DNA of 64,000 nucleotides from an uncultured Isosphaeraceae bacterium (GTDB taxonomy: Bacteria > Planctomycetota > Planctomycetia > Isosphaerales > Isosphaeraceae). The stretch is taken from positions 124,001 to 188,000 of the forward strand of contig CAMFLR010000014.1 in assembly GCA_945957605.1 (NCBI GenBank). The letters run 5' to 3'. The position numbers were made by a program, and so were the translations under genes. A model generated the notes under the pieces. It had not been told where the DNA came from, did not search any database, and saw only the letters and a list, made by a program, of their open reading frames with translations. How positions within the stretch are numbered: position 1 is the first letter of the stretch; each line of letters opens with the position of its first letter. Below, piece after piece: positions 28,450 to 31,811 of this stretch.

Positions 28450-30222
28450 GTGGCCACTATCGACGACCGTACAGCGCAAACCACCTCCCGCATGCCTACG
28501 ACCGGTGCCGATGTCCTGGTCGAATCCCTCGCGCGGCACGGCGTCGATGTCGTATTCGCCTACCCCGGCGGGGCGAGCATGCCGATGCACCAGGCGCTCA
28601 CCCGTCACCGCAGCAAGATCCGCACAATCCTCCCGCGCCACGAGCAAGGCGGCGTTTTCGCAGCCGAAGGCTACGCCCGCGTCACCGGCAGACCCGGCGT
28701 CGTGATGGCAACCTCCGGCCCGGGTGCCTTGAACCTCGTCACCGGCCTGGCCGACGCCAAGCTCGATAGCTTGCCGATCATCGCCATCACCGGCCAGGTG
28801 CCCACGAAAGTGATCGGCACCGACGCGTTCCAAGAAACGCCGATGGTCGAGGTCTGTCGGGCCATCACCAAGCACCATTATCTCGTTCAGAACGCCAAGG
28901 ACATCGCCCGGATCGTCAAGGAAGCGTTCCACATCGCCTCGACCGGCCGCCCCGGCCCGGTTCTGATCGACGTCCCCAAAGACGTCCAGAACACCCAGGT
29001 TGCCAACCCGAACTACGACGTCGCGATGGACCTGCCGGGTTACCGCCTGCCGTCGGCCCCCAGCAGCGAGACGATTCGCGAAGTCGCCGAAGCGATCAAG
29101 GCCGCGCGTCGGCCCATCGTTTACTGCGGCGGCGGTGTGATCGCGTCGGACGCGGCTGAGGAACTGCGGGAATTCGCAAACAAGACGGGCATTCCCGTCG
29201 CGATGACCCTGCAAGGTCTCGGCTCGATGCCCAGCGACCATTATCTGAGCCTCGGCATGCTCGGCATGCACGGCACGGTTTACTCGAACTACGCCATCAA
29301 CGAGGCCGACCTGCTGCTCGCGCTCGGCGTCCGTTTCGACGACCGCGTGACCGGCAAGCTCAGCGAGTTTGCCAAGCACGGCCGAATCGTGCATGTCGAT
29401 ATCGACGCGTCTGAAATCAACAAGAACAAGACGGCTCACATTGCGGTGAACTCCGATGTGAAAACCGTCCTCAAGGCGCTCAATCCTCTCATGGAGAAGG
29501 GCGACCTCCGCGAGTGGCACAAGCAGATCGACACCGCCCGCGCCGCCGACCCGATGACCTACGACCAGCGTGATGACGCGATCATGCCGCAGTACGTCAT
29601 CGACAAGTTCTCGGAACTCACCAAGGGCGAGTTCCTGATGGCGACGGGCGTCGGCCAGCACCAGATGTGGGCCGCGCAGCACACGAGGCTCACCAAGCCG
29701 CGCACCTGGATCACCTCGGGCGGTCTCGGTTCGATGGGCTTCGGCCTCCCCGCCGCGATGGGTGCCCAGGCCGCGTTCCCTGACGCCTTGGTTGTGGATG
29801 TCGACGGCGACGGCTCGCTCGTCATGAACATCCAGGAACTGGCGACGCTTTACTGTGAAAACCTGCCGGTGAAGGTGATCCTCCTCAATAATCAGCACCT
29901 CGGCATGGTCGTGCAGTGGGAAGACCGGTTCCACGGCGGCAATCGCGCCCACACGTATCTTGGCCCCGTCGACCATCCCGAAGCGATCGGCGAAGGTTCG
30001 GGCGAATTGCCCGAAATCACCTATCCCGACTTCGTGACGATCGCCCAGGGTTTCGGCGTGAAGGCTCGCCAGATCCGCAAGAAGGCCGACGTGATCGACG
30101 CGCTCAAGGAAATGATCGCCCATCCCGGCCCGTACATCCTCGACATCCTTGTTCCTTACCAGGAACACGTCTTGCCGATGATCCCCGCAGGCGGCACGTT
30201 CCGCGACATCATCAAGAGCTAA
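28450..30222 (+). CDS. ilvB: Acetolactate synthase large subunit
   Basis: This is a ThDP-dependent enzyme of valine, leucine and isoleucine synthesis that condenses pyruvate to acetolactate. In 590 residues: the ThDP Glu region [15 protein letters not shown] and [15 protein letters not shown] (catalytic Glu), [35 protein letters not shown], the FAD domain in the middle, and the ThDP-binding motif [17 protein letters not shown] with [16 protein letters not shown]. The GTG start is preceded by GGAGAGAG. The regulatory subunit gene ilvN is not next to it. A GC-rich hairpin follows the stop. Confidence 0.96.
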
Positions 30223-30300: not shown

Positions 30301-30415
30301 GTCCGTTCTCAGGTGTGGGGAATGATGCAACACTAGGAATCAGAATCGTTCCTTCCACTTCCTTATCTCCCCGTCTGGCATTCTACGACCCTGGGACTTA
30401 ACGCCTTCCGAACTC

Positions 30416-30887
30416 TTCGTTCCCTTCGTTACCTTCTGTTCAAACCGGTATTTTCGACATGCATCCCCTTTTCGCCAGAGTTGACAAACTGTCCGGCGAA
30501 GTAATTGGTGCCGCAATCGAAGCACATCGTGTGATGGGACCGGGATTGCTCGAGAGTATCTATGAAAAGTGCCTGCTACGTGAACTCGAACTCCGCGGTA
30601 TTCCCGTTCTGAACCAGGAAGAAGTCATCATTGATTACAAAGGCATCGTGTTCAAAGAGAATTTGAAGTTCGATCTGCTGGTTGATGGCTGCCTTCTCGT
30701 TGAACTGAAAGCGGTTAACAACATCCTACCGATCCATAAAGCACAATTGCTCAGCTACATGAGACTGGTCAACGCGCCGCTGGGGCTGCTCATCAATTTC
30801 CATGAGTTCAAACTTATCGACGGTCTCTCGCGACTGATTCTTCCCGGAGCGAATCAGAATTGAACAGAAGGAAACAATGGAAACGAA
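30416..30887. repeat. Imperfect inverted repeat enclosing the GxxExxY gene
   Basis: The 28 nt at 30416-30443 and 30860-30887 are inverted copies with 24 of 28 positions matching; the innermost 12 nt (TTGAACAGAAGG when read into the right copy) are identical. The left copy ends 15 nt before the ATG at 30459 and the right copy contains the stop codon of the gene. This gives the gene the look of a self-contained cassette. No target-site duplication could be identified. Confidence 0.75.
30459..30863 (+). CDS. GxxExxY family protein
   Basis: The product has 134 residues, full length for the family. The name-giving motif is in GPGLLESIYEKCLLREL (about residues 27-43), followed by IIDYKGIVFKENLKFDLLVD and CLLVELKAV, which resembles the core of PD-(D/E)xK nucleases; the enzymatic role of the family is not established. 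The base composition is more AT-rich than the flanking genes, and an inverted repeat encloses the gene, both suggesting lateral origin. In other bacteria this family is scattered and patchy. The ATG at 30459 matches the normal family start. Confidence 0.9.
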   Translation: MHPLFARVDKLSGEVIGAAIEAHRVMGPGLLESIYEKCLLRELELRGIPVLNQEEVIIDYKGIVFKENLKFDLLVDGCLLVELKAVNNILPIHKAQLLSYMRLVNAPLGLLINFHEFKLIDGLSRLILPGANQN

Positions 30888-31055
30888 GTAGGAAAGCTTA
30901 AATTTCGTTGTAAGCAATGTCGCCCATATAATCGACTCGTCGAGAACTCAACGACCACGCGTTCCCAACCCGTAACCTCTCCGATATTCTGAGACTCGAC
31001 TCCTCTCCTAGGATCTATTGTCCGGCGCCTTTCGAGACAGTTCGCCGGACCCAGG

Positions 31056-31811
31056 ATGCCCTCGACCATGAATCCCTACGCCAACGATTCCGCCGACTTT
31101 TATATCAATTTGAATCTCAATACCGAGCTGGAACTGCCCACCTCGCGCGATACCGTTTTGCATTACTTCGAGCAGATGAAAAAAGCCTTCCCCGATCTGC
31201 GTAACTTCTACACCAGGGAAAGCGGCGACCTCGTTCTCGAAGGCAACAAAGAAAATCATCGCTACCGCTGGCTCGCCCTCGAACCGCGCCGGCTTTGTTC
31301 AGGATTGGTGAATCCCGACAATGTCGAAGAAGCCTACGAACAGCACGAAATGGTGCTCGACCATGCACCTCACCTACTAACAATCAGCGTCCTCGACTGC
31401 GAAGCACTCGACGTCATGTACGGCTTCGACTTCAACTGCAAAGCCAACCACGACGAAGTCATCGCCGAAGCCCTCGGCCTCGGCCCCGGTCTTGAATCGC
31501 TGCTCGATCGCAGCAGCGTGCGCGTGCTCGACTACGAGCCGACGATCACGATCGCCCTCGACGAATCGTGCCGTCTTCAGGCGCGGCTTTCGATCGAAAC
31601 CCGGACCAATCCCGGCCAGGTGCGCACCGGCGAATACAGCGACGATCAAATCAGCGTTTATTTCACAGTTCGCCAGTACTGGGGCTCCGGCTCCGACGAT
31701 TCCTTCACTCGTTCGTTTCGACGCCAGCGGGAAATCGGCGAGGAGATGTTGCAATCGTCGATCATTCCCCGCGTAATCCAGCCAATCGCCCGAACGATCG
31801 CCACACGCTAG
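31056..31811 (+). CDS. Conserved-looking cytoplasmic protein of unknown function
   Basis: The product has 251 residues (247 if the ATG at 31068 is used; neither start has a strong ribosome binding site). There is no signal peptide, membrane segment or recognised motif. The sequence is mixed alpha/beta and acidic, with YRWLALEPRRLCSGLVNPDN and ALDVMYGFDFNCKANHDEVI as distinctive stretches, and ends in a helix with IIPRVIQPIARTIATR. The aminotransferase gene starts 39 nt downstream, so the two may be co-transcribed. I cannot assign a function. Confidence 0.75.
   Translation: MPSTMNPYANDSADFYINLNLNTELELPTSRDTVLHYFEQMKKAFPDLRNFYTRESGDLVLEGNKENHRYRWLALEPRRLCSGLVNPDNVEEAYEQHEMVLDHAPHLLTISVLDCEALDVMYGFDFNCKANHDEVIAEALGLGPGLESLLDRSSVRVLDYEPTITIALDESCRLQARLSIETRTNPGQVRTGEYSDDQISVYFTVRQYWGSGSDDSFTRSFRRQREIGEEMLQSSIIPRVIQPIARTIATR

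Follow-up and report, generated by a model that had tools for sequence, protein, structure and literature searches.

Anatomy of the locus

The window (the whole 64,000-nt stretch of DNA analysed here) carries a GxxExxY gene enclosed by two inverted repeat arms, situated between a gene that we take, on our own reading of the sequence, to be ilvB and a conserved downstream gene for which no match was obtained in Pfam or NCBIfam (Table 1). The initial annotation had described the gene as packaged inside an inverted repeat, and this repeat is real: the arms are 29 nt each, lie 416 nt apart, are complementary at 25 of 29 positions (86%) and enclose an intact gene. The finer details reported for the repeat also hold, in that the inner 12 nt of the arms (TTGAACAGAAGG) are identical, the ATG at 30459 stands 15 nt past the end of the left arm and the TGA (30861–30863) falls inside the right arm. 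The gene is indeed more AT-rich than its neighbours, with a GC content of 48.6% compared with 63.4% for ilvB upstream and 56.6% for the downstream gene (59.6% for the window). The arm at this locus is built from the units TTGAACAGAAGG-NAACGAAGG-NAACGAAG, and no target duplication was seen beside the two arms, whose flanks read TCCGAACT and TAGGAAAG.

Table 1 Features of the GxxExxY locus, in window coordinates.
Feature	Position	Strand	Description
ilvB, acetolactate synthase large subunit-like	28450..30222	+	Left synteny anchor; 92% amino acid identity to G001 (L122)
Stretch missing in G001 between ilvB and downstream gene	~30315..31046	.	Edges blurred by divergence
Left repeat arm	30415..30443	-	TTGAACAGAAGGTAACGAAGGGAACGAAG on the - strand, head TTGAACAG facing the gene; 0 mismatches to dispersed repeat
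GxxExxY gene	30459..30863	+	134-aa PD-(D/E)XK nuclease-like protein; TIGR04256, PF13366; sole genomic copy
Right repeat arm	30860..30888	+	TTGAACAGAAGGAAACAATGGAAACGAAG; holds the stop codon of the gene; 1 mismatch to dispersed repeat
Conserved gene, no family match	31056..31811	+	Right synteny anchor; found in 58 of 59 relatives

The GxxExxY protein

The encoded protein matches TIGR04256 over the full model with 130.8 bits (cut-off 35), placing it within the GxxExxY family, and PF13366 (PDDEXK_3) with 124.4 bits (cut-off 22). To our knowledge, this widespread family is annotated as 'function unknown'. Seven residues (G27, G29, E32, D72, E82, K84 and N113) are invariant in 69 diverse sequences, and they include the E + D + ExK active site (E32, D72, E82, K84) of PD-(D/E)XK nucleases, whose conservation is thereby established. 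The AlphaFold2 model (pLDDT 96.2) was compared with known structures using Foldseek and VIA-align, with Cas4 SSO0001 as the closest structure (Foldseek E 2.7e-4; Z 8.2 over 105 residues, 4.8 Å); lambda exonuclease, Hjc and restriction enzymes were lower-scoring matches, and tRNA-splicing endonucleases were also among the fold matches. No sequence relative was found in the PDB, while a defence library yielded nothing beyond a weak match to Cas4 (E 0.02) and a phage library gave a weak endonuclease match (E 0.04). The PD-(D/E)xK-like core ascribed to the family in the initial annotation is supported by the predicted fold and the intact active site, and on the modelled structure the protein classifies as a member of the PD-(D/E)XK superfamily, predicted to be a minimal nuclease of the Cas4/lambda-exonuclease type.

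Dispersed palindromes in the host genome

A whole-genome search with the locus segment gave additional matches to its ends only, the GxxExxY gene having one genomic match while the arms are dispersed. The arm pattern TTGAACAGAAGGNAACNAANGNAACGAAG, allowing up to 3 mismatches, has 46 copies in the 8.84-Mb genome and a second arm pattern has 55, with 0 matches to the reversed control in each case. These copies are mostly intergenic, with 5 of 49 lying within ORFs of at least 200 codons compared with 74% of random positions, and are arranged as inverted pairs, clusters and multi-arm arrays, often directly 3' of a stop codon. The usual inverted pair has a loop of 23–67 nt, so that the gene-bearing copy, with its 416 nt, is a long-loop version of it, and paired arms fold as long, strong hairpins. 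In all isolated doublets seen (9 of 9), the heads TTGAACAG point towards the loop, an order identical to that of the two arms at the gene.

The arms had at first been read as the private ends of a cassette, with no mention of copies elsewhere; this idea was dropped because the arm proved to be dispersed across the genome. A four-helix-bundle S23 gene was rejected as a second carrier, being single copy and without such a repeat. A RAYT/Y1 partner was likewise rejected, as the repeat occurs in 0 of the 8 loci of ~3 kb that surround Y1/HUH transposase genes in this genome.

The intergenic placement, often right after a stop codon, and the strong hairpins would be expected if selection maintained the palindromes for a function in RNA or transcription, as terminators or as hairpins at mRNA 3' ends, with GxxExxY acting on the hairpins as an autoregulating regulator or processing nuclease, and the tRNA-splicing endonucleases among the fold matches point the same way. 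Such a role is the main rival to a spread of the repeats driven by the nuclease, and we regard it as unlikely in view of the distribution of the palindromes and of their units described below.

Inverted repeats at GxxExxY genes of other genomes

The association between gene and repeat was assessed in a sample of 80 GxxExxY relatives from public genomes and about 60 from related planctomycetes, using a fixed inverted-repeat score (threshold 14, strong inverted repeat within 200 nt of the gene) on which the pair in the window scores 19. Among the 127 scored GxxExxY genes, which derive from Planctomycetota, Verrucomicrobiota and Bacteroidota, 89 reached a score of at least 14, compared with 3 of the 300 ORFs from these loci that served as controls (p = 8e-57), and about 30% had no detectable inverted repeat. 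The initial annotation had proposed searching other genomes for the 28-nt ends around GxxExxY genes; what flanks these genes is a repeat of the same kind, and the linkage of gene and repeat is established across these phyla. The flanks of most relatives follow the same inverted-repeat design with another 7–9-nt unit, the units seen being AACGAAG, AACGGAG, CACAGAG, CACGGAT, CACAGAT, CGCAGAG, CGCCAAG, CGCAGAT, ATTAAG and CATAG. The unit pattern of the window itself gave zero matches in 56 of 59 relatives, which at first gave an impression of rarity but is explained by the different units that these relatives carry.

Several planctomycete genomes hold 2–4 GxxExxY genes with different units, and the unit of each such gene resembles that of its nearest protein relatives in other genomes. 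For example, the CACAGAG gene of G024 pairs with a gene of G033 at 76% identity, and a CACGGAT gene of G024 with another G033 gene at 79% identity. Similarly, of the genes in G052, the one nearest to that of the window (61% identity) has GAACAGAAGGAAAGGAAGG, which is absent from its sibling genes. On a FastTree protein tree (134 columns, many open forks), 26 unit labels required 40 changes versus a shuffled mean of 76, and 0 of 1000 within-genome label shuffles were as low as the observed 20 changes, although p values in this study are optimistic because the genomes are related and the unit labels were taken from a candidate list of our own compilation. Matching between unit and clade is established by these counts; the repeat unit tracks the GxxExxY protein clade rather than the host genome. 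A unit that changes with the protein clade inside one genome would be needless for a general terminator, which weighs against a purely RNA-level role for the palindromes.

Genome-level correlation and orphan repeats

The GxxExxY gene was detected in 160 of 248 sampled genomes of the class, and a generic CAC-type pattern gave 4990 matches in the 248 genomes versus 32 when reversed. At least 10 repeats were present in 87 of 160 gene-bearing genomes versus 6 of the 88 lacking the gene (odds ratio 16, p = 5e-15), with many gene-bearing genomes holding repeats in tens to hundreds. Gene number correlated with repeat number (Spearman 0.65 over 248 genomes, kinship ignored), and the CAC-type pattern was abundant only in genomes whose gene flanks are of the CAC type (p = 2e-5).

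Orphan repeat populations also exist. Six gene-less draft genomes (G075, G087, G104, G122, G049 and G182) contain 13–44 repeats each, to be explained by gene loss, by gaps in the drafts or by a different driver. In G016, 24 copies of the window (AACGAAG) type occur, yet the sole GxxExxY gene has CGCAGAT flanks, and no cognate GxxExxY gene for the window-type palindromes was found in this genome. These populations count against a nuclease-driven spread. The window-type palindromes of G016 (L240–L252) are near-uniform, measuring 58–59 nt from arm start to arm start. Outer flanks of ~45 nt are common to several of the G016 copies, and the true element may therefore be ~180 nt, extending beyond the arms alone.

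Presence and absence of genes and palindromes among relatives

In G001, a member of the same genus, and in G025, ilvB and the downstream gene are immediate neighbours, and no GxxExxY gene stands between them. The DNA that is extra relative to G001 amounts to ~730 nt rather than 474, and an exact empty-site junction against G001 was not found, the flanks being too diverged. The initial annotation had suggested examining empty sites in close relatives; the gene is absent at this site in both genomes, while neither precise insertion nor a target duplication was seen. G001 retains a 41-aa GxxExxY remnant at another locus (L239), beside repeats of the CGCAGAT type and not of the window type. None of the palindromes examined, in any genome, showed a target-site duplication or an exact junction.

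In Flavobacterium, the GxxExxY gene is inherited vertically and occupies one locus across the compared species, whereas the palindromes to its left and right differ. The palindromes themselves turn over between species: at orthologous sites, some species carry the ATTAAG palindrome and others lack it, two orthologous intergenic sites away from the gene hold either the ATTAAG palindrome or other palindromes depending on the species, and in G253 the loop of a CACAAATTT/AATTCGTG palindrome contains a nested ATTAAG palindrome. Presence and absence at orthologous sites is thereby established, and together with nesting, orphan populations and multi-arm arrays it resembles the behaviour of mobile DNA more than that of terminators or mRNA hairpins. 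Across 14 Flavobacterium genomes (L328–L341), a single slot was seen with different families by species (ATTAAG, GCCACGAATT, GGCCACGGATT and TCTAAG types). Such slots look like spots of repeated insertion; their sharing by several palindrome families could also accord with selected terminators or RNA hairpins, and to this extent favours the RNA-level role.

One genome, G010, with similar gene copies at several loci, has five GxxExxY copies inside outer 25-nt ends (GGCTC[CT]TC...GTGGGTG) that are unrelated to the repeats of the genes themselves, two of the copies being bordered by perfect 8-bp AT-rich duplications (AAAAAATC, TTTTTTCC). Duplications of this kind are typical of ISL3-like elements. 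Since the copies end at the unrelated outer ends, they were spread by another, ISL3-like transposase, and their initial reading as recent IS-like copies made through their own repeats was rejected after alignment had revealed the outer ends and duplications. The ISL3-like miniature element that thus carries a GxxExxY gene and its repeats in G010 (L180–L185) has several decayed copies and one that is interrupted by ~2.2 kb.

The G010 copies, along with the orphan repeat populations, would fit movement of the palindromes by some other transposase, with GxxExxY riding along, either neutral or of benefit to the host. We consider this very improbable as a general explanation: outer ends as in G010 were seen at no GxxExxY gene elsewhere, the Y1 transposases of the window's own genome are not near the repeats, and matching of unit to clade with one protein family over three phyla would be unexpected for a rider.

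The initial annotation had further proposed a minimal mobile or homing cassette, that is, a gene and two arms transposing or homing as a unit. The lack of the gene at the equivalent position in G001 and G025, the patchy distribution of the gene and the heads-in arm order that its copy shares with isolated gene-less doublets are all compatible with such a cassette, which we nevertheless judge improbable, given the single copy here, the ~730 nt of extra DNA and the lack of a target duplication. Self-movement is further opposed by the vertical inheritance in Flavobacterium and by G010, the one multi-copy case examined in detail, where multiplication was through ISL3-like ends. Homing finds no support, as repeats occur at many sites and several families in one slot. 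Copies ending exactly at the inverted repeats and accompanied by a duplication, as would mark an insertion sequence, were not obtained.

A proposed nuclease–palindrome partnership

We therefore favour, as the probable explanation, that the locus is a gene-carrying palindrome whose GxxExxY nuclease recognises and cuts the repeats of its own family, spreading them in trans. Each element consists of inverted arms of 7–9-nt units and folds as a hairpin; the loop is empty in most copies and holds the GxxExxY gene in one. The GxxExxY protein would recognise the repeat of its own family, probably in hairpin, cruciform or single-stranded form, and by nicking or cutting it would cause gene-less palindromes to be copied or mobilised in trans. 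The gene would itself be a mostly single-copy, slow-moving partner, standing to the palindromes as RAYT does to REPINs. Binding and cutting of the repeats by the enzyme, and their spread as its consequence, are inferred.

The data suggest that GxxExxY and its repeats form a bacterial 'jumping palindrome' system, with an enzyme of a kind not previously linked to one. Whether GxxExxY constitutes a new class of mobilising enzyme, a stand-alone Cas4-like nuclease that reads clade-specific unit arrays and drives the spread of REPIN-like elements within Planctomycetota, Verrucomicrobiota and Bacteroidota, we consider evenly balanced. These phyla contain many dispersed hairpins for which we know of no driver so far, and the link between gene and repeat offers a candidate for it as well as a testable role for the GxxExxY family. 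If the interpretation is true, REPIN-like populations have also formed with a partner enzyme that bears no relation to HUH transposases. The system could provide a small clade-specific set of nucleases and repeats, in which the reading of units by residues may be predictable from dozens of natural cognate pairs.

Comparison with known systems

A literature search, with preprints and subscription journals outside its range, found no paper linking GxxExxY to repeats, and the repeat strings occurred in no relevant paper within the same range: of six strings, five were absent and the other had a single occurrence, in a paper on connexin 26 with no bearing on the subject. The GxxExxY protein resembles Cas4, lambda exonuclease and Hjc in predicted fold and in its E + D + ExK active site, and differs from the Cas4 group in its size of 134 aa, its lack of a sequence match in the PDB and its link to dispersed repeats. 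A published pipeline reported a GxxExxY domain in place of a cas4 gene (PMC8934634); here, no CRISPR or recombination gene was seen directly beside the GxxExxY gene.

The palindromes are like MITEs in that gene-less copies share their ends with one gene-carrying copy, and unlike MITEs and their parent insertion sequences in having neither a target-site duplication nor a transposase of a known class. TIRYTs, or TIRtrons, likewise comprise a single enzyme gene within inverted repeats that are also dispersed in single, dimeric or grouped form (PMC3733652), but their enzyme is of the HUH/Y1 type whereas the one described here is PD-(D/E)XK.

The closest parallel in organisation is the REPIN-RAYT system of Bertels and Rainey, in which each family of dispersed inverted doublets has one distinct flanked enzyme gene (PMC3116915), several cognate pairs coexist per genome, and the enzyme is mostly vertical while the repeats spread (PMC3116915). 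As in REP/REPIN-RAYT (TnpAREP), dispersed intergenic inverted doublets and clusters are tied here to a single-copy gene, every clade of the enzyme is matched by a repeat type of its own (0 of 1000 within-genome shuffles), and genomes hold several enzyme–repeat pairs whose nearest enzyme relatives are in other genomes. The arms differ from REP sequences in consisting of 7–9-nt tandem units and were seen without GTAG or CGTC tags, and the enzyme is a PD-(D/E)XK protein in contrast to the HUH/Y1 tyrosine transposase of RAYTs. Because the enzyme is non-HUH and the Y1 genes of this genome carry no repeats, the system is not a member of REPIN-RAYT, and we therefore describe it as working like REPIN-RAYT with an unrelated nuclease.
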